A stretch of 33,949 nt of DNA from a virus (IMGVR_UViG_3300045950_000264:1-33949), one strand, 5' to 3'. Positions 1-33,949 are shown, counted from the stretch's first letter. Notes: generated by a model not told the origin, from the sequence alone. Numbers and translations are program-made.

Positions 1-237
1 GAGTTTCCGAAGGTGAAGAGGAAGCTATGGGGAGGACATTTTTGGGAGCAAGGATATTTTGTGCGTACAGTTGGGGAACAAGTGACTGATGAAGTAATAC
101 GCCGGTATATTGAGAAGCATAGTTTTTGGTACGAAAATAACCTTTGTCTTCCATTATCTATATATTTTCATGCCCCTTTGTGCCGACTAATCGGCATGTG
201 GGTTTCATCTGAACAGCTCCGGTTTGGAGATTTCTAA
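1..237 (+). CDS. tnpA: IS200/IS605-family TnpA transposase, C-terminal part (5' end outside window)
   Basis: The frame is open from the first base and ends with TAA at 235-237. The peptide around WGGHFWEQGYFVRTVG followed by VTDEVIRRYIEKH is the conserved C-terminal block of Y1-type (HUH single-strand) transposases of the IS200/IS605 family. By family knowledge, the tyrosine in RRYIE is likely the catalytic tyrosine on the last conserved helix. The HUH histidines would lie upstream, outside the window. The roughly 35 residues after IEKH are not conserved-looking and run into the terminal hairpins of the element. Family assignment is by motif recognition; full length and integrity cannot be judged. 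Confidence 0.85.
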   Translation, partial: EFPKVKRKLWGGHFWEQGYFVRTVGEQVTDEVIRRYIEKHSFWYENNLCLPLSIYFHAPLCRLIGMWVSSEQLRFGDF

Positions 238-7251: not shown

Positions 7252-7695
7252 ATGTATGCAGCATGGTGGTCAATGATCGGCTTTGGACTTAAGTACTGGA
7301 AATACATTGTCTCATCCCTTGCAGCATTGGCTTTAGGCTTTGGTGCTGCATGGTTTATTCAGGGTGTGAGACTTAACTATGCAAAATCTGAAGTCTTAAA
7401 CCTCAAATCTCAAATACAAATATGTCAGGATGCGAATGTGGCAAATCAGGAGACGATAGTAAAACTAAAGACCGAGATCGAGAGCGCACAGAGTCTTTGT
7501 GAATCAAGGCTCAGGGTGAAAGACAAGGTAATCTCAAGGCTTAAAGAGATAGACGCTTTAAGAGCGGAAGGGCGGAAGCGCGGAAGTGCGGAAGAGGAGA
7601 TAAAGAAGGATGAAAAAGGCATTGATGCTACTGTTGATGATCCTATTCTTCACGAGCTCAATAGGATGTTCAACAAGGCAGATAGTAAAGACTGA
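7252..7695 (+). CDS. Inner-membrane spanin (Rz-like)
   Basis: The 147-residue protein has one N-terminal transmembrane helix at about 18-37 (YIVSSLAALALGFGAAWFI). A long periplasmic coiled coil follows (NYAKSEVLNLKSQIQ, NQETIVKLKTEIESAQSL, VKDKVISRLKEIDALR). This is the layout of Rz-type i-spanins, which join an outer-membrane partner to fuse the two membranes in the last step of lysis of Gram-negative cells. The lipoprotein gene embedded in its 3' end in another frame supports the call. Confidence 0.8.
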   Translation: MYAAWWSMIGFGLKYWKYIVSSLAALALGFGAAWFIQGVRLNYAKSEVLNLKSQIQICQDANVANQETIVKLKTEIESAQSLCESRLRVKDKVISRLKEIDALRAEGRKRGSAEEEIKKDEKGIDATVDDPILHELNRMFNKADSKD

Positions 7696-7876
7696 ATACA
7701 TTAAGCATCAAGTTCCGGAGTTGCCACAGGAGCCGGAATATTATCCTGTGCAGTGGCATATGTCCCATATGTCCTATTGCCTCGATGAAGGCAATGCAAA
7801 GAACCTGCTTAAGAACAGAGAGCTTGACAAGGCATATTCTGAGGAGCTGAGGACAATACTGGAGGGACTGAGGTAA
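7610..7876 (+). CDS. Outer-membrane spanin lipoprotein (Rz1-like), overlapping Rz
   Basis: ATG 7610 lies within the Rz-like gene in a different frame, with GAGGAGATAAAGAAGG in front. The 88-residue product begins MKKALMLLLMILFFTSSIGC, a lipoprotein signal with the lipid-accepting cysteine at position 20. A proline-containing stretch follows (HQVPELPQEPEYYP). Embedded or overlapping Rz/Rz1 pairs are typical. It is longer than the classic 60-residue Rz1, which leaves some freedom for an additional C-terminal helix. Confidence 0.8.
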   Translation: MKKALMLLLMILFFTSSIGCSTRQIVKTEYIKHQVPELPQEPEYYPVQWHMSHMSYCLDEGNAKNLLKNRELDKAYSEELRTILEGLR

Positions 7877-8164
7877 ATGGACGGCATAGGCATACTTAGG
7901 TTTATCGAGCAAGGAGGGGCAATAGCATTAATCGTATTTTTAGCTTTCTTGTTTTTCAGGCTCGAAAGGGCGATGACAAGGCTTCATGAGAGAATGGATG
8001 CAATCCAGAGCGAGCTTATCGAGAAATACGCGCAGAAAGGCGAACTCTACAGCGATATATCGGGATGGAGGGGCGATTTGAGGACATTGACGGACAAGGT
8101 GGATAAATTGAGAGAGGAATTTTTTTACCTCAAGGGCAGGTATGATGAGCTTAAGGAGGAGTAA
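7877..8164 (+). CDS. Membrane-anchored coiled-coil protein, Mu gp25 (DUF2730)-like
   Basis: The 95-residue protein has one transmembrane helix at about 15-30 (AIALIVFLAFLFFRLE). A coiled-coil tail follows (AMTRLHERMDAIQSELIEKY, LRTLTDKVDKLREEFFYLKGRYDEL). Size, architecture and position, just before the gp26/gp27-type genes, match the DUF2730 protein of Mu-like phages, whose role is unknown. It begins immediately after the Rz1 stop. Confidence 0.6.
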   Translation: MDGIGILRFIEQGGAIALIVFLAFLFFRLERAMTRLHERMDAIQSELIEKYAQKGELYSDISGWRGDLRTLTDKVDKLREEFFYLKGRYDELKEE

Positions 8165-8993: not shown

Positions 8994-10495
8994 GCATCCT
9001 CAAGGAACTGGTCGGAGATATAGATGCTGAAAAAGAGAAGCGCATATCAAGGGCAGAAAAAGACTTTTTCTTTTTTGCAAGGACATATTTTTCGCATCTG
9101 TTCTCTGTGGAGCCTGCCGAATACCAGCGGACAATCATAGATATAATCAACGATGGCAGACTCAATAAAAGGCATATAGGCAGGCTTAAGCGCTATATCC
9201 ATGAGCGGTATGCGAATATACTGGCGCCTTCGGACAGGCTTGAAGGCATTATAGACATAGAGCCGCGCGGCCACGGCAAGTCAACAAGGATGAGCATAGT
9301 TTTTCCGCTGTGGCGCGCTATTACAGGGAAATCAAGGTTTGTGGTCATCTTTTCGTCATCAGAACAAAGGGCGGCGCAGATACTTGATGATATAAAGTTT
9401 GAGCTTGCGGAGAATGAGGCGGTAATAGAAGACTTTGGCGATGTAAGAGGCAAGATATGGAAGGCGAACTTTATACACCTGAAAAACGGCTCTGCCATAG
9501 CCTCAAGGGGCGCGGGGGCGTCTGTAAGGGGCATGAGATTCAGGCAATACAGACCTGACCTTGTGATATGCGATGACATAATGAAGGACGACATAGCCCG
9601 TTCAAAGACCCAGAGAGAGAAGCTGTATCAATGGTTTAAAAAAGTGGTATTGCCGCTGGGCAAGGATATTTTTGTGGTAGTGGTCAATACTATTTTTCAT
9701 AATGATGACCTGCCCTCCAGACTGCTCAAGGAATCCGTGGACGGCAAGCTTAAAGGGTGGCTTGCATTGAGGTTTTCCGCGATCGTCTCAGGACATCCTC
9801 TGTGGCATGAATACTGGAGCATGGAGAGCCTTGAAAAGAAAAAACAAGAGATGGGATCAATCGCATTCAGCACGGAGTATATGAATGAGCCGCTTTCGGA
9901 GGAGGACAGGCTCTTTAAAGAGGACTGGCTTGAATTTGATGCTGAAGAAGCCGAACTCAAGGAGATGAGGGTCTTTGCAGGCGTTGACCCTGCATTAGGC
10001 TCGGGAGATTATTCCGCGATTGTAACAATAGCAGTTGACAGGGACGGCATTGCACATGTGGTAGACGCCTTTGCCGAAAGGCTTACTCCCGATGCTTTCA
10101 TGGACAGGATCATACAGAAATACATCAGATACAAGCCCCAGCTTATAGCCTTTGAAGAGGTGGCATTTCAAAAGGTGATGAAAGAGCATCTCATCAAGAA
10201 GGCCGCGCAATATGGGGTGTACCTGCCTGTCAAAGGCGTTACCCCGGGCAGATTGAGCAAGGAGATGAGGATAGCCAAGATAAGCCCGATGGTGGAAAAC
10301 AAACTTATCAGATTCAGGGAAAACCAGAGATTGCTTATAGAGCAGCTCCTGACATTCCCCAGAGGCGATCATGACGACCTTCTGGACGCTTTGTATTATG
10401 CAATCCAGATAATCGGAGGCGTTTCAAAGGAGCCGATGGTCTTTTATATGGGCGTGCATAGAGATACAAGGGCGATATTTAGGGGGTATAGATAA
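8990..10495 (+). CDS. Terminase large subunit, Mu gp28-like
   Basis: The 501-residue packaging motor has an ATPase domain with Walker A EPRGHGKST (91-99) and Walker B LVICDD (191-196). Its RNase H-like nuclease domain shows GVDPALGSGDYSAIV (Asp333), LIAFEEVAF (Glu389/390) and DHDDLLDALYYA near 460. The domain order and length agree with Mu-type large terminases, which package DNA from integrated copies. The neighbours are the small subunit and the portal. Confidence 0.92.
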   Translation: MSILKELVGDIDAEKEKRISRAEKDFFFFARTYFSHLFSVEPAEYQRTIIDIINDGRLNKRHIGRLKRYIHERYANILAPSDRLEGIIDIEPRGHGKSTRMSIVFPLWRAITGKSRFVVIFSSSEQRAAQILDDIKFELAENEAVIEDFGDVRGKIWKANFIHLKNGSAIASRGAGASVRGMRFRQYRPDLVICDDIMKDDIARSKTQREKLYQWFKKVVLPLGKDIFVVVVNTIFHNDDLPSRLLKESVDGKLKGWLALRFSAIVSGHPLWHEYWSMESLEKKKQEMGSIAFSTEYMNEPLSEEDRLFKEDWLEFDAEEAELKEMRVFAGVDPALGSGDYSAIVTIAVDRDGIAHVVDAFAERLTPDAFMDRIIQKYIRYKPQLIAFEEVAFQKVMKEHLIKKAAQYGVYLPVKGVTPGRLSKEMRIAKISPMVENKLIRFRENQRLLIEQLLTFPRGDHDDLLDALYYAIQIIGGVSKEPMVFYMGVHRDTRAIFRGYR

Positions 10496-12814: not shown

Positions 12815-13618
12815 ATGGCATTAAGGCTTCAACTTGCAAAGCCGGGGAAGTTTGGAATAGACGGAACCGTTGTTACAGAACAGGCTCTCAGGGATGCGGT
12901 AGAGACTTTCGAGTCCGATGTCCCTATAACATTAGGTCATCACCTTGCCGATTTCATGCCTGCTTTCGGATGGGTGAAATCGGTTGAGTATTCAGAGCCC
13001 GAGAAAATCCTTTATGGAGATGTAGAACTTTCGGATGTCTTAAAAGATGCCTTTGAGGAGGGGCTTTATAAAAAATGGTCTGTAGGTATTCATAAACGGG
13101 CATCTGACGGAAAACGCTTTCTTCATCATCTCGCATTCCTCGGCGCAGTGCCGCCAAAGATCAAGGATCTTAAAATCATGGACAGCAAAGTAATCAATAT
13201 GTCCGATGTTCAGGAGACATGGACATTCCCTGATGAATCTAAACAAAAGGAGGAGGTAAAGATTATGCCAAAGGATGAAGGCAAGGACCTTGAGCTTGCC
13301 GACGCTAAAAAGAAGGCGAGCGATCTTGAGACAGCGCTCAGAAACGCAAAGAAGGATGCGCTCAAAAAAGCAATTGAAGGAAAAGTCCCTGCTGCAAAGG
13401 CAGGGCTGGTGATGGAGCTTGCGGATCATCTTACTCTCGATGAGACTATCGAGTTGAGCGATGATGCAGGCAAGAGGAAGGTGTCTGCATTTGATATTCT
13501 GAGCGAGATATTCGCCTTGATCCCGCTGCCGGTCAAACCCGGAAGTGTGGATATGGGCGATGCGCCGGATACGGGCGGAAGCTCGGTTGACGCCGCAGCA
13601 ATGATAAAAAGCATGTAA
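12815..13618 (+). CDS. Capsid maturation protease with C-terminal scaffold, Mu gpI-like
   Basis: The 267-residue protein has an N-terminal protease domain (FGIDGTVVTEQALRDAVETFE, PITLGHHLADFMPAFGWVKSV, KWSVGIHKR, HHLAFLGAVPPKIKDL), the pattern of Mu I and relatives. It cleaves the scaffold and sometimes other head proteins. From about residue 150 it becomes a charged helical scaffold region (DLELADAKKKASDLETALRNAKKDAL). An in-frame internal start (13265) would make the scaffold alone. It follows the second candidate late promoter. Confidence 0.88.
   Translation: MALRLQLAKPGKFGIDGTVVTEQALRDAVETFESDVPITLGHHLADFMPAFGWVKSVEYSEPEKILYGDVELSDVLKDAFEEGLYKKWSVGIHKRASDGKRFLHHLAFLGAVPPKIKDLKIMDSKVINMSDVQETWTFPDESKQKEEVKIMPKDEGKDLELADAKKKASDLETALRNAKKDALKKAIEGKVPAAKAGLVMELADHLTLDETIELSDDAGKRKVSAFDILSEIFALIPLPVKPGSVDMGDAPDTGGSSVDAAAMIKSM
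13265..13618 (+). CDS. Scaffold protein from an internal start in the protease gene (Mu gpZ analogue)
   Basis: Inside the protease gene, AAAAGGAGGAGGT (13245-13257) lies 8 bases before ATG 13265, which is in the same frame as the protease and would give a 117-residue protein equal to its C-terminal scaffold part (MPKDEGKDLELADAKKKAS...). Mu makes its scaffold Z from an internal start in gene I in just this way. The ribosome site is stronger than that of most genes in the window. Confidence 0.7.
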   Translation: MPKDEGKDLELADAKKKASDLETALRNAKKDALKKAIEGKVPAAKAGLVMELADHLTLDETIELSDDAGKRKVSAFDILSEIFALIPLPVKPGSVDMGDAPDTGGSSVDAAAMIKSM

Positions 13619-28556: not shown

Positions 28557-29645
28557 ATGGCTATAACCATATCAGTTACTGATGCATTAAGGCAGTCAGT
28601 AGAGGCTGCCAGCGGAGGTAAAAACACAGTGCTTTATGACAGCAAGGGATATCCGAGCATTATGGTCAGGATACCCAGATTTAACCTTCAGGATATTGAC
28701 GCATCTCTTGGCACCGGCGCTCACCCTGCGTTTATCGTTAACGGGGTAGAGAAAAGTGAAATCTTTATCGGAAAGTTTCAGGCAATAGTGCACGATGGCA
28801 ATGCCTTGAGCCTGCCAGCGCAGGACCCTGCAGTGAACCTGAATTTTGATCAGGCTCTTGCCTTCTGCAAGGCAAAGGGGACGGGCTGGCATGTAATGAC
28901 CAACGCAGAATGGGCGGCATTAGCCCTCTGGTGCTGGAAAAATGGCTTTATGCCGAGAGGCAATAATGATAACACTAAAGACCATTCCGCAGCCTACGAG
29001 AGCGCCGTGAAAGCCACGATTGGCATGGATAATAGAACTCTAACAGGCTCTGGACCCGCAAGCTGGTATCATGACAACACACCCTTTGGCGTTGCAGACC
29101 TCAACGGGAACATTTGGGAATGGACTGGAGGTATGAGACTTAATAACGGAGAGATTCAAATATTACAGAACAACGATGCTGCCGATAATACAAAAGACCA
29201 GAGCGCCTCATCAACCCTCTGGAGGGCGATACTGGCATCGGATGGCTCTCTTGCCGATCCCGGAACGGCAGGCACATGCAAATACGACTCGGTGAATGCA
29301 GGGACAGTTGGACAGGTTGGCCCAGCACAACTTGACGATGTCAGGGACAATTCCAATGCCCCGGCATCCGGAGACAATGGACACACTTATAACACATTCC
29401 AGAGTCTTGTTGCTGACACAGGAATCACACCACCTGCAATACTAAAAGCACTCGCCCTTTTCCCAATTGCCACAACAGGACTGGGCGATGATGGAATGTG
29501 GGTAAGGAACTATAACGAGCGGCTACTGCTTCGCGGCGGTAACTGGAGCGATAGCTCCGATGCGGGGGTGTTCGCGCTTAATCTGGATAATGCGCGCTCG
29601 ATCGTGAGCGGCACTGTGGGGTTCCGCCCCGCCTGTGTCTTATGA
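28557..29645 (+). CDS. DGR target protein: FGE-sulfatase/C-type-lectin-fold variable protein
   Basis: The 362-residue protein is probably the virion's host-binding tip. The formylglycine-generating-enzyme-like fold is shown by AFCKAKGTGWHVMTNAEWAALALWCW, GVADLNGNIWEWTGG and the C-terminal RGGNW...AGVFALNLDNARS...VGFRPA. These are the motifs of the C-type-lectin-related fold used by many diversity-generating retroelements. No catalytic FGE cysteines are apparent, as expected for a binding version. Its last 39 codons contain the variable repeat. Compared with the template, residues 331, 332, 335, 344, 351, 352 and 353 are changed and codon 348 is silently changed. AAAGGAGG precedes the ATG. It follows tail fibre genes. 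Confidence 0.9.
   Translation: MAITISVTDALRQSVEAASGGKNTVLYDSKGYPSIMVRIPRFNLQDIDASLGTGAHPAFIVNGVEKSEIFIGKFQAIVHDGNALSLPAQDPAVNLNFDQALAFCKAKGTGWHVMTNAEWAALALWCWKNGFMPRGNNDNTKDHSAAYESAVKATIGMDNRTLTGSGPASWYHDNTPFGVADLNGNIWEWTGGMRLNNGEIQILQNNDAADNTKDQSASSTLWRAILASDGSLADPGTAGTCKYDSVNAGTVGQVGPAQLDDVRDNSNAPASGDNGHTYNTFQSLVADTGITPPAILKALALFPIATTGLGDDGMWVRNYNERLLLRGGNWSDSSDAGVFALNLDNARSIVSGTVGFRPACVL
29530..29637 (+). repeat. Variable repeat (VR) of the diversity-generating retroelement
   Basis: The 108-bp segment aligns without gaps to the template at 30086-30193 (offset 556). There are nine mismatches, at 29548, 29550, 29559, 29586, 29600, 29608, 29610, 29611 (all A in TR to G here) and 29614 (A to C). 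None of the 85 non-adenine TR positions differ; 9 of about 23 adenines do. The last 22 bases (GTGGGGTTCCGCCCCGCCTGTG) are identical and GC-rich, fitting the initiation-of-mutagenic-homing sequence. Confidence 0.95.
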
Positions 29646-29681
29646 TTATCTGTTCTCTGAAATCTGTCAATCTGTTTTTTG

Positions 29682-29703
29682 GAGGCGGGCTAATGCCCGC
29701 CTC
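29682..29703 (+). other. 9-bp hairpin downstream of VR
   Basis: GAGGCGGGC (29682-29690), loop TAAT, GCCCGCCTC (29695-29703) is a perfect stem 44 bases past the VR end. DGRs such as that of phage BPP-1 need a similar hairpin with a 4-base loop just behind the VR for efficient homing, though there it lies much closer. ATTTTTTT follows 8 bases later, so it may also end target-gene transcription. Confidence 0.7.
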
Positions 29704-29730
29704 GCGGAAAATTTTTTTAAAGGGGGCAGA

Positions 29731-29736
29731 TATAAT
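29731..29736 (+). promoter_or_regulatory. Candidate -10 box for avd/TR/RT transcript
   Basis: TATAAT lies 11 bases before the avd ATG, immediately after the hairpin and T run, so it would start a separate DGR transcript. I see no good -35 at 16-18 bases upstream (the region is A/T-only). There is no Shine-Dalgarno before avd, consistent with a very short leader. Confidence 0.45.
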
Positions 29737-29747
29737 ATAATGTCGGC

Positions 29748-30080
29748 ATGGATAATTTGGTCATATATCAGAAGGTTTATGATTTCACATTATATCTATT
29801 CCCTGTTGTTGACAAATTTCCGAAACATGAGAAATTTGTTCTCTGCACGCATATTAAGTCATGCGTGCTGGACATTGCAAGGGAGATCATCAGGGCAAAT
29901 AAAAGTAAAAATAAGAAGCCGATTCTGTATGACATTGATGTAAGGATAGAAGAACTGAAATTCCTGCTGAGACTGGCTCATGACAGGAAGTATCTATCTC
30001 ACAAGAGTTACGAGCATAGCGGTAAGCTTGTAACTGAAATAGGGCGGCTGTTGGGAGGGTGGATTAAAAGTGTGGGTTAA
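29748..30080 (+). CDS. avd: DGR accessory variability protein Avd (four-helix bundle)
   Basis: The 110-residue protein MDNLVIYQKVYDFTLYLFPVVDKFPKHEKFVLCTHIKSCVLDIAREIIRANKSKNKK...IDVRIEELKFLLRLAHDRKYLSHKSYEHSGKLVTEIGRLLGGWIKS has the four-helix pattern of Avd/S23-like proteins. 'FpK.ekf.L..qi......i...i..A' and the R...Y.....Y......igr.LggWi.s ending are clear. By family knowledge it forms a pentameric barrel that binds the reverse transcriptase and TR RNA and is needed for cDNA synthesis. It lies directly before the TR: the stop is 5 bases upstream of the first TR base. Confidence 0.92.
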   Translation: MDNLVIYQKVYDFTLYLFPVVDKFPKHEKFVLCTHIKSCVLDIAREIIRANKSKNKKPILYDIDVRIEELKFLLRLAHDRKYLSHKSYEHSGKLVTEIGRLLGGWIKSVG

Positions 30081-30085
30081 GGGCA

Positions 30086-30193
30086 TTCGCGGCGGTAACT
30101 GGAACAATAGCTCCAATGCGGGGGTGTTCGCGCTTAATCTGAATAATGCGCGCTCAATCGTGAACAACAATGTGGGGTTCCGCCCCGCCTGTG
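30086..30193 (+). ncRNA. Template repeat (TR) of the DGR
   Basis: This is the invariant donor copied by the reverse transcriptase. Read in the target frame it encodes RGGN WNNSS NAGVFALNLNNARS IVNNNVGFRPAC. Ten asparagine codons (AAC/AAT) are placed at or around the changed positions, the usual design because randomising both A's in AAY reaches 15 amino acids without stop codons. Its frame starts after avd and is not part of a credible gene. The homology starts weakly earlier (TGTGGGTTAAGG at 30071-30082 resembles TGTGGGTAAGG in front of the VR). Confidence 0.95.
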
Positions 30194-30304
30194 CCTGTGT
30201 AATGTTTTTAGAGAGGATGTCTCTACGGAGCGCCTCCAGTGTCGTACACAGACAGGCTCTTAATCCCTGCCGAAAGGCAAAAATTGGAGAGGCACTGTGT
30301 AGTG
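30187..30304 (+). ncRNA. Structured RNA at the TR 3' end (candidate cDNA-priming/spacer region)
   Basis: GCCTGT (30187-30192, the very end of TR) pairs with ACAGGC (30252-30257) and TGTGTA (30196-30201) with TACACA (30245-30250). They close a junction containing hairpins TAGAGA-GGATG-TCTCTA (30209-30225) and GGAG-CGC-CTCC (30227-30237). Downstream, TGCC-GAAA-GGCA (30268-30279) and CACT-GTGT-AGTG (30293-30304). In the BPP-1 system the roughly 140 bases after TR fold with it and supply the cDNA primer; this region is in the equivalent place. Confidence 0.65.
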
Positions 30305-30340
30305 AGTACGGATAATCCATAAAATTGCACATGCCGCATA

Positions 30341-30460
30341 ATTTCGGTCGGTTAATAGCTCCACTCCTGTTGGAGAATTATTAGGCCCGAAATCTCAGAA
30401 TCGTAGAAACGGTCGGTTGGCAGCTCCACTGAGAATTGCCAAGCCCATCAAAAACCGTTT
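30341..30460 (+). ncRNA. Two tandem copies of a structured RNA motif with covarying stems
   Basis: Unit 1 (30341-30393): ATTTCGG pairs with CCGAAAT (30387-30393), TAATA (30353-30357) with TATTA (30379-30383), CTCCA with TGGAG. Unit 2 (30407-30460): AAACGG pairs with CCGTTT (30455-30460), TTGGCA (30417-30422) with TGCCAA (30437-30442), CTC with GAG. Both keep TCGGTT, GCTCCACT and GAGAATT at matching places, while stem bases differ in a compensated way (AAT/ATT versus GGC/GCC). No coding frame explains this. It lies between TR and the 61-aa ORF/RT. I do not recognise a described RNA family. Confidence 0.7.
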
Positions 30461-30485
30461 TACGGTTTTAAGATTTCGGGCTTTT
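30451..30485 (+). terminator. Hairpins with T run competing with the tandem RNA motif
   Basis: AAAACCGT (30451-30458), TTT, ACGGTTTT (30462-30469) forms an 8-bp stem that shares bases with the unit 2 outer stem. AGATTTCGGGC (30471-30481) is fully complementary over 11 bases to GCCCGAAATCT (30385-30395), which overlaps the unit 1 outer stem; TTTT follows it. Both would form only when the units open, as in an attenuator. Confidence 0.5.
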
Positions 30486-30504
30486 CGTTTCAGGAGGCTG
30501 AGCA

Positions 30505-30690
30505 ATGGTTGAGAAGAAAGACGTTAAGGAGTGGAAAAAAGTACTGGTGAGATGTTTAGAAGGGCTGTCAAAAGAGGGAATTGTCCCGCAGGATGTGAAG
30601 GAACTTACCGGCAGAATTGTCCTTGATCTGAACATGAGTCAGGGCGGCATTACGGATATGGACATATCTGTTAAGAGGAAATTCAAATAG
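30505..30690 (+). CDS. Small protein (61 aa) before the DGR reverse transcriptase
   Basis: ATG 30505 follows CAGGAGG. The 61 residues VEKKDVKEWKKVLVRCLEGLSKEGIVPQDVKELTGRIVLDLNMSQGGITDMDISVKRKFK are lysine-rich and probably an alpha/beta or helical mini-domain. It ends 3 bases before the RT GTG. No family recognised. Gene position and a good ribosome site suggest a DGR accessory (nucleic-acid or RT binding); this is inference. Confidence 0.6.
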   Translation: MVEKKDVKEWKKVLVRCLEGLSKEGIVPQDVKELTGRIVLDLNMSQGGITDMDISVKRKFK

Positions 30691-30693
30691 TCT

Positions 30694-31731
30694 GTGGGTG
30701 ATGCTATGCCAAAAACATACAACGGTCTATTTGAAAAGATATATACCTTTGAAAACCTCTACAGCGCATATCTCAAGGCACGCCGGTGCAAGCGATACCG
30801 GAAAGAAGTTCTTATATTCTCCCGCAATGTCGAGGAGGAACTATTGACTCTTCAAGAAGAGATAAGCTTAGGCACCTATACGACTGGCCGGTATAGGAGA
30901 TTTCTGGTATTTGAGCCAAAGAAACGGGAGATTTCAGCGCTACCGTTCAGGGACCGGGTGGTTCATCATGCAATCCACTCTATTATAGAACCTCTCTTTG
31001 AGAGACGGTTCATTTTCGATTCTTACGGCTGCCGTGTCGGGAAAGGCACTCATGCCGGATCTGCAAGGCTGGTGAACTTTTTGCGGAGGGCCCAGAGAGT
31101 ATGGGGTGTCGTGTATTGCATGAAGGCGGATATTTCAAAGTTCTTCCCTTCTGTAGATCACGAAGCATTAAAGAAGATCATTCGCAGGACAATACGCTGC
31201 AATAGGACTCTCCATCTCATCGAGGAGATCATTGATAGCATCCCCGGAGGGAAAGGGATTCCTATTGGGAATCTTACGAGCCAGCTCTTTGCAAATGTGT
31301 ATCTGGATGAGCTTGATCATTTTATAAAAGAAAAGCTGCGGGTGAAATTCTATATACGATATATGGATGATTTTGTGATATTAAATGAGGATAAGATACG
31401 GTTGCATAAGTGGAAATCTGATATTGAGACATTTCTAAAAGAAGAACTGCGGCTTAATTTCAATGCCAAAACGTCTATCTTTCCTATTTCGCAGGGAGTT
31501 GACTTTCTCGGATATAGGACATGGCCAACTCATAAGCTACTCAGGAAGAGGAGTGTCATAGGGATGAGGCGGAAGCTGAAAAAGCTTTCTGAACGCTACA
31601 GAAAGGGGACAGTAACACTCAAGGATATAAGGCCTGTAATAGCGTCATGGCTTGGCCATGCGAAGCATGCAAATAGCTATAACGCAGTAAAAAGAGTGCT
31701 GGGCGGGATGGTTTTTAGCAGGAGTTACTGA
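30694..31731 (+). CDS. DGR reverse transcriptase
   Basis: The start is GTG 30694 or, more likely by family alignment, ATG 30706 (MPKTYNGLFEKIYTFENLYSAYLKARRCKRYR). Residues (numbered from 30694): motif 1/2 ISALPFRDRVVHHAI (80-94) and SYGCRVGKGTH (110-120), motif 3 KADISKFFPSVDH with first catalytic Asp 146, motif 4 GIPIGNLTSQLFANVYLDELDHF with IGNLTSQ (191-197), motif 5 YMDD (223-226) with the catalytic aspartates. IGxxxSQ instead of the QGxxxSP of retroviral and group II RTs is diagnostic of DGR RTs. There is no maturase or endonuclease domain. It copies TR RNA to cDNA with errors opposite adenine. Confidence 0.95.
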   Translation: MGDAMPKTYNGLFEKIYTFENLYSAYLKARRCKRYRKEVLIFSRNVEEELLTLQEEISLGTYTTGRYRRFLVFEPKKREISALPFRDRVVHHAIHSIIEPLFERRFIFDSYGCRVGKGTHAGSARLVNFLRRAQRVWGVVYCMKADISKFFPSVDHEALKKIIRRTIRCNRTLHLIEEIIDSIPGGKGIPIGNLTSQLFANVYLDELDHFIKEKLRVKFYIRYMDDFVILNEDKIRLHKWKSDIETFLKEELRLNFNAKTSIFPISQGVDFLGYRTWPTHKLLRKRSVIGMRRKLKKLSERYRKGTVTLKDIRPVIASWLGHAKHANSYNAVKRVLGGMVFSRSY

Positions 31732-31741
31732 AAAATAAAGC

Positions 31742-31839
31742 GGACAGTAGACTAATCCTATGTTGGAGCATAGGATCGGGATGCCCTGCTACCATCCGCA
31801 CCTCTGGCCGAGGCGGTTTCATTGTAGCAGTGGTGTCCC
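31742..31839 (+). ncRNA. Three-way-junction RNA between RT and DNA methylase
   Basis: Closing stem GGACA (31742-31746) with TGTCC (31834-31838). Hairpin ATCCTATG-TTGGAG-CATAGGAT (31755-31776), a perfect 8-bp stem. Second arm CTGCTAC (31786-31792) with GTAGCAG (31824-31830), enclosing CCG..CCTC-TGGCC-GAGG-CGG (31796-31816). GGGA (31778-31781) could pair with TCCC (31836-31839) as an alternative. The region has no gene, lies 10 bases after the RT stop and ends 30 bases before the next ATG. It may be a 3' cap of the DGR transcript, a leader element of the methylase, or an independent small RNA. Confidence 0.6.
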
Positions 31840-31869
31840 TAAAAATTCAATTCAGGGAGGTTATTTATT

Positions 31870-32637
31870 ATGAAGAAAAGCTTTCTCAGTTATCTGGGCG
31901 GCAAATCACTGCTTGCAAGCAAGATTATTCCTCTGATACCGGAACATTCCTGTTACTGTGAAGTCTTTGCCGGTGCAGCGTGGATGCTCTTCAAAAAGGA
32001 AGAGTCGAAGGTCGAAGTTATTAATGATATTAATACAGATCTGGTAACTCTTTATCGCGTAGTGAAAAACCATCTTGATGAGTTCGTCAGATATTTAAGA
32101 TGGATACTTATAGCGAGGGACGAGTTTGAGCGCTTTAAGGCTGAAAATCCGGAGGCCCTCACGGATATACAGAGAGCAGTGAGGTTTTACTATCTACTCA
32201 GGACAGGATTTTCAAGTCGTATTGATAATCCGAGCTTTGCGATCGGAACGGTGAGGCGGCCAAACCTTAATCTTTTAAGGATCGAAGAGGAGCTATCCGA
32301 GGCGCATCTCAGGTTGTCCAGAGTGTATATCGAGAATCTGCATTACGAGAAGCTTATAGAGAGGTATGATAGGACGCATGTGTTTTTCTATCTCGACCCT
32401 CCCTATCACGGAGTCGAGGATTATTACGGCAAGGGGATATTCGGTAGGAACGATTTTGCAAAACTGAGGGATATTCTAAAGGGCATTAAGGGCAAATTCA
32501 TAATGTCCATAAATGATACGAAGGAGATACGAGGACTTTATAAGGATTTCCGCATCGAGGAGGTAAAAACATCATATTCGGTAAATGGAGGTAGTAAAAA
32601 GCTGGGCGTTACAGAATTGCTGATTATGAACTTTTAG
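31870..32637 (+). CDS. dam: D12-class N6-adenine DNA methyltransferase (Dam-like)
   Basis: The 255-residue protein has SYLGGKSLLASKIIPLIP (7-24), the SAM-binding CEVFAGAAWML (30-40) and the catalytic YLDPPYHG with DPPY at 176-179, the order of class-alpha D12 adenine methylases. The variable recognition part lies between. As the last phage gene it occupies the place of mom in Mu and probably protects phage DNA from host restriction. A CAGGGAGG ribosome site precedes it. Specificity (for example GATC) cannot be read from the sequence with certainty. Confidence 0.9.
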   Translation: MKKSFLSYLGGKSLLASKIIPLIPEHSCYCEVFAGAAWMLFKKEESKVEVINDINTDLVTLYRVVKNHLDEFVRYLRWILIARDEFERFKAENPEALTDIQRAVRFYYLLRTGFSSRIDNPSFAIGTVRRPNLNLLRIEEELSEAHLRLSRVYIENLHYEKLIERYDRTHVFFYLDPPYHGVEDYYGKGIFGRNDFAKLRDILKGIKGKFIMSINDTKEIRGLYKDFRIEEVKTSYSVNGGSKKLGVTELLIMNF

Positions 32638-32700
32638 ACATGATAAAACACGGAAAGGCAGGAAAAAACACGCTTGTAAAGTTGTAAAGCGTTATCCTGT
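32638..32700. other. A/T-rich non-coding stretch between methylase and right end
   Basis: The stretch contains the direct repeat TTGTAAAG-TTGTAAAG (about 32674-32689) and no gene. It probably belongs to the transposase-binding right end. Confidence 0.5.
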
Positions 32701-32752
32701 AATTTGTAACATTTAATTCTGGAATTTGTCGCATTTTCGGCTGGAATGAACA
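32679..32752. mobile_element. Right end of the Mu-like prophage with tandem transposase-binding sites
   Basis: Two adjacent 22-bp repeats, 32701-32722 and 32723-32744, share AATTTGT-N2-CATTT-N5-TGG; a third, weaker copy (14 of 22 matches to the first) lies at 32679-32700. Read from the end inward (minus strand) the sequence begins TGTTCATT-CCAGCCGAAAATGCGACAAATT. A terminal TG followed by such sites is the plan of Mu ends. The last phage base is then 32752 (CA), where host coding sequence starts. The left end is outside the window. Confidence 0.65.
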
Positions 32753-33949
32753 CTTATCATATCCCAAAGCCGCTCCTGCCAATACTTGGAAAGCCGTTGA
32801 TAGAGGGCATCATTGAAAAATTCTCTCTTATATCCTCAGGCAGAATAGGCATAAACCTCCATTATAAGGCAGATATGTTAAGAGATTGGGCCAGAAATTC
32901 TGCATTCTCAGAGCGCATTGAATTGTTTTATGAAGACCCGATACTCGGCACGGGCGGGGCATTGAAAAATGCCGAAGAATTTCTTTCAGGAGGACACTTC
33001 CTTACGCACAATTCCGACATTGTCTCTGACATTGTTTTTTCGCTCCTGATAGAAACACATCTATCGAAGGGCAATATTGCGACACTCGCAACACATGATT
33101 ATCCAAGATACAACAATGTTGTTCTGGATGAAAGGGGATATGTTGTGGATGTCGAGAATCCTGGCACTTCAATGCCGAATCCTGAAACTTCAGGTAGAAA
33201 AGCCGCATATACAGGAATTGCGGTCTACTCTCCGGAGATTCTGAAGTTTCTGCCTCAAGGAATTTCACATGCCACGGTTGCATGGCTTGCAGCAGCTAAA
33301 GCAGGACATAAGGTAAAAGCCATGGATTTCACCGGATGCTACTGGAACGACATAGGAACACCACAGGCATATGCCTCTGCAATAATCGATGCGTTAAGAA
33401 CTGACGGCGAAACAGTATACATTCATCCATCGATGGGAGGTTGCCCGGATATCGAAATTGACGGCTATGTCGCTATAGAGAAAGGCTGCATCCTTGATGA
33501 TGCATCTTCTTTCAGAAACTGCATTGTGCTTGAGGGCAGCCAGCTAAATCCCCCCATCCCCCCTTTAGAAAAGGGGGGTGAGGGGGGATTTTACGAGAAC
33601 TGTATAATCGGGCCTGATTTTGAGATCAATCTCGACGAGACCGAGATGCTCGGCACTTTTGGAGATAATGGATTGATTCTTATCGGCACAGGAGGCTCTG
33701 ACAGGAAGTATTACAGAATGAAGAATGATAATTCGACTGCTGTGTTTGTGAAATACAAAAAAGAAGACCCCGACTTCCATCGGCATATAGAGTACACAAA
33801 ATTCTTCAGGAAGCATGATATACCTGTCCCTGAATTGCTTGATGTCAATTTTGAAGAAATGACTGCTTTATTTGAAGACCTCGGAGATGTTTCCCTTTAC
33901 AGTTGGCTGAAATGTCTGCGGGAATCTATGCAAATAGAAGCTATGTACA
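32746..33949 (+). pseudogene. Host NDP-sugar nucleotidyltransferase-kinase fusion, 5' part displaced by the prophage, 3' end outside window
   Basis: The frame is open to the window edge. YHIPKPLLPILGKPLIEGIIEKF is the second conserved block of nucleotidyltransferases. PILGTGGALKNAEEFL, FLTHNSDIV and FTGCYWNDIGTPQAY agree with GDP-mannose/UDP-sugar pyrophosphorylases (MurU-like). From about 33690 LIGTGGSDRKYYRMKNDNSTAVFVKYKKEDPDFHRHIEYTKFFRKHDIPVPELL is an aminoglycoside-phosphotransferase-type kinase start, as in AmgK. A fused MurU-AmgK-like enzyme (cell-wall sugar salvage) is a reasonable guess. The N-terminal GxGxR nucleotide-binding block that should precede IPKPLLP is missing because the prophage lies there. 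The only start, ATG 32746, is supplied by phage DNA. Confidence 0.75.
33546..33592. repeat. Palindromic coding repeat (NPPxPPxxKGGxGGF type)
   Basis: A run of C's (AAATCCCCCC...CCCCCC) is followed by the complementary run of G's, forming a long hairpin around TTTAGAAAA. Read in the gene frame it codes for NPPIPPLEKGGEGGF, between the nucleotidyltransferase and kinase parts. The same peptide-coding palindrome is dispersed in many bacterial genomes. Here it is inserted in frame without breaking the gene. Confidence 0.8.

Follow-up and report, generated by a model that had tools for sequence, protein, structure and literature searches.

The viral record IMGVR_UViG_3300045950_000264 (33,949 nucleotides (nt), the whole of which was analysed and is called here the window) carries, at positions 28,557 to 31,731, what an earlier note had described as a complete diversity-generating retroelement (DGR) on a Mu-like prophage. 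This locus raises the question of whether the DGR has been at work and whether any part of it departs from the DGRs already known. The analysis indicates that the DGR is complete, that the prophage is Mu-like and that the element was very probably active in its recent ancestors, and the only unusual part of the element is the region of a small open reading frame (ORF) between the template repeat (TR) and the reverse transcriptase (RT) gene. The earlier note had listed this ORF, which exists at 30505-30690, and had passed over the unusual nature of the region. The window encodes both a Mu-type transposase and transposition protein (phrog_310, phrog_296) and the Mu head proteins Portal_Mu (E 1e-86) and Phage_Mu_F, as expected of a Mu-like transposable phage. 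Likewise, it holds an adenine-specific pair of TR and variable repeat (VR), a DGR-type RT, the accessory protein Avd, a lectin-fold target with a VR at the 3' end of its gene and a structured spacer RNA. The order is target, VR, hairpin, avd, TR, spacer RNA, ORF of 61 amino acids (aa) and bRT-type RT; the target, hairpin, avd, TR, small ORF and RT each lie where the earlier note had placed them. The parts of the core are as follows.

28557..29645, + strand: DGR target gene, 362 aa, C-type-lectin (FGE-subtype) variable protein, homologue of TaqVP (PF03781, E 1.6e-9; phrog_2889, E 1.8e-141)
29530..29637, + strand: VR, recipient of the mutagenised complementary DNA (cDNA), 91% identity with the TR over 111 nt
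29682..29703, + strand: hairpin or cruciform from a stem scan, with a GC-rich stem of 9 base pairs (bp) and the 4-nt loop TAAT, 44 nt past the VR
29748..30080, + strand: avd, accessory variability determinant, 110 aa (NF033474, E 1.8e-36; bAvd PF22296, E 4.7e-34; phrog_3206)
30086..30193, + strand: TR, with 23 adenines, mostly within AAY codons
30194..30335, + strand: spacer (Sp) RNA after the TR, RT-14-like (full-length match to RF02921 at 30195-30335, below threshold)
30709..31731, + strand: DGR RT, 340 aa, with YMDD and IPIGNLTSQ (RVT_1, E 7e-22; phrog_1423, E 6e-149)

The core itself is an ordinary new member of the already known DGRs of Mu-like phages, because Bacillus phage BalMu-1 (NC_030945), named Mu-like, has the same gene order and because transposable phages carrying DGRs have already been published (PMC6199706, PMC12135933). 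DGR-encoding viruses in general are known in very large numbers (PMC8144416). In BalMu-1 a SUMF1/FGE-type target, Avd, TR and RT follow one another near the right end, and its RT is 46% identical to that of the window, but holin and endolysin genes come after the RT whereas a Dam methyltransferase gene follows in the window. The same set and order of components is found in Bordetella phage BPP-1 (mtd-avd-TR-brt), which likewise has a GC-rich hairpin after the VR; by contrast, BPP-1 is not Mu-like and its target Mtd is only distantly related. The window Avd scores above the NCBIfam equivalog cut-off (NF033474) and matches the BPP-1 Bbp7/Avd structures 4dwl and 8ub7_B. The window RT is homologous to the bRT of the same BPP-1 ribonucleoprotein (RNP; 8ub7, E 1.5e-70), and its YMDD and IPIGNLTSQ motifs are intact, aligning with YMDD and IPIGSLTSQ. 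The hankyphage of Bacteroides is also a transposable temperate phage with a DGR, in a different host, a likeness drawn from publications (PMC6199706, PMC12135933) and not from sequence.

The departure lies in the distance between TR and RT. This gap measures 511-555 nt in the window and in four related loci (L020, L054, L055 and L082), versus 42-265 nt in 39 of the 40 others; the exception, L069, has other genes in between. The gap is 144 nt in BPP-1 and about 167 nt in BalMu-1, which is without the additional block and without the 61-aa protein. In the five loci with the long gap, the first ~140 nt are spacer RNA and the remaining ~300 nt form an extra module, which in the window consists of the following parts.

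30345..30387, + strand: hairpin H1 (CGGTCGGTTAATAGCTCC...GGAGAATTATTA), one of two tandem, covarying copies
30410..30450, + strand: hairpin H2 (CGGTCGGTTGGCAGCTCC...GAGAATTGCCAA), the second tandem copy (repeat D3)
30385..30488, + strand: long terminator-like stem that encloses H2 and is followed by a T-run (arms 30385-30408 and 30458-30481; inverted repeat I1)
30505..30690, + strand: ORF of 61 aa preceded by AGGAGG, conserved in the five loci with 51-79% identity to the window copy

In both hairpins a 1x3 internal loop (R/AnY) separates two stems. When the ten hairpins of the five loci were treated as one family, 93.8% of the cells were paired, compared with 33-48% in slid controls, and 22 two-sided changes were counted versus 7.6 +/- 2.8 after shuffling (0/500). 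The outer 11 bp of the long stem are paired in all 55 cells of the five loci, two of the pairs with compensatory changes; a simple terminator scan missed this stem because its loop is larger than the limit of the scan. As judged from substitution patterns, the ORF is evolving as a protein under purifying selection. The ratio of non-synonymous to synonymous changes (dN/dS) was 0.02-0.10 in frame for the three computable pairs among the window, L020 and L054, and 0.7 or more out of frame. For the window against L020 and L054 the corresponding values were 0.04-0.10 and 0.8 or more, and against L055 the synonymous sites were saturated. The RTs that accompany the module fall into a single clade (support 100/99) together with the RT of L003, which is without it, a pattern best explained by a single gain and a single loss.

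The 61-aa protein has no relative in Pfam, NCBIfam, PHROGs or the PDB, and the module RNA has no match in Rfam at E<=1. A search of ~790 genomes revealed no clear copy of the ORF outside DGRs, and IMG/VR added none to that of L020; weak profile matches in other genomes (E 0.001-0.01 per genome) were set aside as chance level over ~790 genomes. Full-text literature searches, with subscription journals outside their scope, yielded no description of the module.

We propose that the block is a lineage-specific regulatory or accessory module. A more specific reading, which we hold tentatively and somewhat short of an even chance, is that it is a dedicated control module in which tandem sensor-like hairpins, an attenuator and the 61-aa protein would set the share of template RNA that becomes RT and thereby regulate or assist hypermutation. 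Several points weigh against this reading. Some copies have only a short T-run, which makes the terminator function of the long stem uncertain; AlphaFold gave a poor model for the 61-aa protein (pLDDT 63.5), unfit for a fold search; and the module is carried by five sequences only and is missing from one relative inside the clade, L003. There is also a substantial, if minority, chance that the DGR core works and that the block is an unrelated cassette of leader and small gene, inserted once between spacer and RT and carried along ever since. The block does have a Shine-Dalgarno sequence and a stop of its own, nothing known ties it to RT function, and in L003 it has apparently been lost while the DGR was kept. 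What speaks against a mere passenger is that five of five copies found sit at the same position of a DGR, with no clear copy elsewhere in the genomes and IMG/VR records searched, and that both its RNA and its ORF are conserved across RT divergence down to 65% identity.

The answer to whether the DGR has been at work comes from the repeats. The longest repeat of the region is a 111-nt direct repeat (29530-29640 and 30086-30196), and no further VR was found within the 33,949-nt record. Ungapped alignment of VR and TR over 108 nt reproduced the nine differences of the earlier note, all at TR adenines (8 A to G, 1 A to C), whereas TR and VR are identical at all 85 non-adenine sites; nine random mismatches would all land on the 23 adenines of the TR with a probability of 2e-7. 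The same alignment returned the seven residues that had been named in the target (331, 332, 335, 344, 351, 352, which changed twice, and 353), and the remaining change is silent at S348. The first mismatch past this segment, at 29638 (TR C, VR T), is a non-adenine one and marks the boundary of the initiation of mutagenic homing (IMH) site and its TR counterpart IMH*, so that the adenine specificity which had been called perfect holds for the 108-nt homing segment and stops there.

As a control for this specificity, the same repeat scan was run on 85 relatives with the free base set to A, C, G or T. Base-specific pairs were obtained in 67 of them for A and in 0, 2 and 3 for C, G and T, respectively. 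Relatives whose VR differs from TR mostly at non-adenine positions, which the earlier note would have counted against the element, did not turn up; 569 of 582 mismatches fell at A, as pooled over 44 loci that had been picked out by a scan biased towards mismatches at adenines. It should be noted that the VR of L055 is partly N and that the record of L020 stops inside the RT. In L066 and L067, direct repeats at 7799-7923 and 9576-9700 have all or nearly all of their mismatches at T of one copy and are probably TR and VR, read from the opposite strand. In L078, a metagenome-assembled genome labelled Saprospiraceae, a TR at 9003-9129 is accompanied by two candidate VRs (13166-13292 and 7313-7433).

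The changed residues fall in a protein whose lectin fold, as the earlier note had proposed, is borne out by both sequence and structure. The target is ~50% identical over its length to TaqVP (E 9e-100), a variable protein of solved structure (PDB 5vf4) that belongs to the DGR of a Thermus aquaticus prophage, and its structural model superposes on TaqVP with a VIA Z of 43.8 (51% identity), Foldseek giving a TM of 0.86; this comparison is of the protein alone. The C-terminal alignment is ungapped, window residue r being TaqVP r+19, and eight of the nine variable residues of TaqVP correspond to adenine-containing TR codons in the window (329, 332, 335, 342, 345, 349, 351 and 353). The changed residues 332, 335, 351 and 353 coincide with TaqVP variable positions, and residue 352 aligns with W371, an aromatic residue of that site that does not vary.

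The strongest evidence for homing was obtained by comparison with L020, the record of a sister phage whose DNA is 87% identical to the window over ~7 kb. The TRs of the two phages differ at seven positions, and in all seven cases the base of a TR recurs in the VR of the same phage. When VR and TR are compared inside one phage, nine differences are counted in either record, every one at a TR adenine, largely at different sites, with G8 C1 as the substitution spectrum in the window and T5 C3 G1 in L020. The mirrored substitutions indicate that transfer from TR to VR occurred after these changes had arisen in the TRs; independent drift is not a plausible source of such a pattern, which is strong indirect evidence of mutagenic retrohoming. 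The conclusion of the earlier note, that homing has taken place at least once since TR and VR last matched, thus gains support from the mirrored substitutions, whereas the number of changed adenines on which it had been founded is weak proof.

It is improbable that the DGR is now a relic, past homing having left an element that is inactive in the prophage. Such a view can draw on the host gene that the prophage adjoins, which looks truncated, and above all on the hairpin. Published phage-DGR hairpins have a GRNA loop and lie 4-34 bp from the VR, and changing the BPP-1 loop from GAAA to CTTT cut homing to near background (PMC3240598). The window hairpin fits in stem and loop size and deviates in its TAAT loop and its 44-nt distance, and since the loop is not GRNA, the homing site could be weakened, a point against recent activity. 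Hairpins of the same shape with different stem sequences occur in most relatives and in BPP-1, and the loop of L020 is TAAC, yet that phage bears the signs of recent homing. Furthermore, all DGR genes are open with the RT motifs intact, the identity of TR and VR at the 85 non-adenine sites would have been eroded by drift, and in L020 the VR tracks its own TR. That the repeats are a simple duplication with A-to-G editing or mutational bias and no retroelement is scarcely credible, for although the 8 A-to-G changes among the nine in the window are skewed compared with the pooled 50% (P 0.018), the adenines changed in L020 are largely others and have become T, C or G, complete DGR machinery lies adjacent, and the concerted change of TR and VR would be left unexplained.

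By analogy with BPP-1, the TR RNA of the DGR in the window would be primed within the 3' spacer RNA and copied by an RT-Avd complex with errors at adenines, and the cDNA would replace the VR at the IMH beside the hairpin, altering up to ~12 residues of what is presumed to be the ligand face. The altered protein would be the TaqVP-like, lectin-fold product of a gene adjoining the tail-fibre genes; from this position and fold it is a probable host-binding protein, whose tip would be rewritten, and it may control host binding and thus host range. As for the module, the leading reading is that it may separate the template RNA from small-protein and RT expression, or tune that expression by attenuation, and the 61-aa protein may be an RNA-binding regulator or a partner in the RNP.

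The spacer RNA is RT-14-like. The matches of the window (31.5 bits) and of L055 (29.7 bits) stay below the gathering threshold of RF02921 (48.1 bits), and the single-strand fold of the window spacer plus leader has a z of -5.05. RT-14 is matched at gathering level immediately after the TR in L004, L005, L008, L010 and L060 and, as a strong match, at the spacer position of BalMu-1 (L112). From this placement in six DGR loci, RT-14 probably represents a family of DGR spacer RNAs other than Phage_DGR (RF03022), which the BPP-1 spacer matches. The literature searched does not mention RT-14 RNA.

Beyond the DGR, a conserved structured RNA at 31741-31849 starts 10 nt past the RT stop, just 5' of a gene for a Dam-family adenine methyltransferase (31870-32637). 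It was considered as a part of the DGR and rejected; it is assigned to the Dam gene, since viral contigs from outside the set of RT relatives carry it ahead of Dam genes. Its core pattern is present in 37 other IMG/VR contigs (L126-L162), and 35 of these have it immediately upstream of an ORF that is Dam-like in its N-terminal sequence; the RNA has no match in Rfam. Two mutually exclusive folds are possible, a junction or a long helix of up to 15 bp. The junction, closed by GCGGA/UCCGC, has 31 two-sided changes versus 12.0 +/- 2.5 when shuffled, mostly in one helix. The competing helix (GGGAU..CCCGCUA with UAGCAGGG..UCCC) has little column covariation, and its energy is kept (mean z -3.1, 28 of 35 below -2, window -5.4). 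We hypothesise that this RNA is a switch-like, candidate riboswitch-like leader of a gene for an S-adenosylmethionine-dependent enzyme.

At the left edge of the window (1-237), the C-terminal part of an IS200-type Y1 transposase lies upstream of the Mu-type transposase gene. The right flank (32700-33949) is host DNA, in which a nucleotidyltransferase ORF fits its Pfam profile from position 17 onward, as if the prophage had inserted near the 5' end of that ORF.

Taken together, the window and L020 offer evidence, from sequence alone, of repeated transfer from template to target in uncultured phages, and the co-location of RT-14 with DGR spacers would assign a function to that Rfam family. The regulation of DGRs, and their partners besides Avd, are little known, and the leader and small protein of the extra module are a compact candidate for both; if the block is indeed a control module, it would make this a regulated DGR with a new DGR accessory protein.

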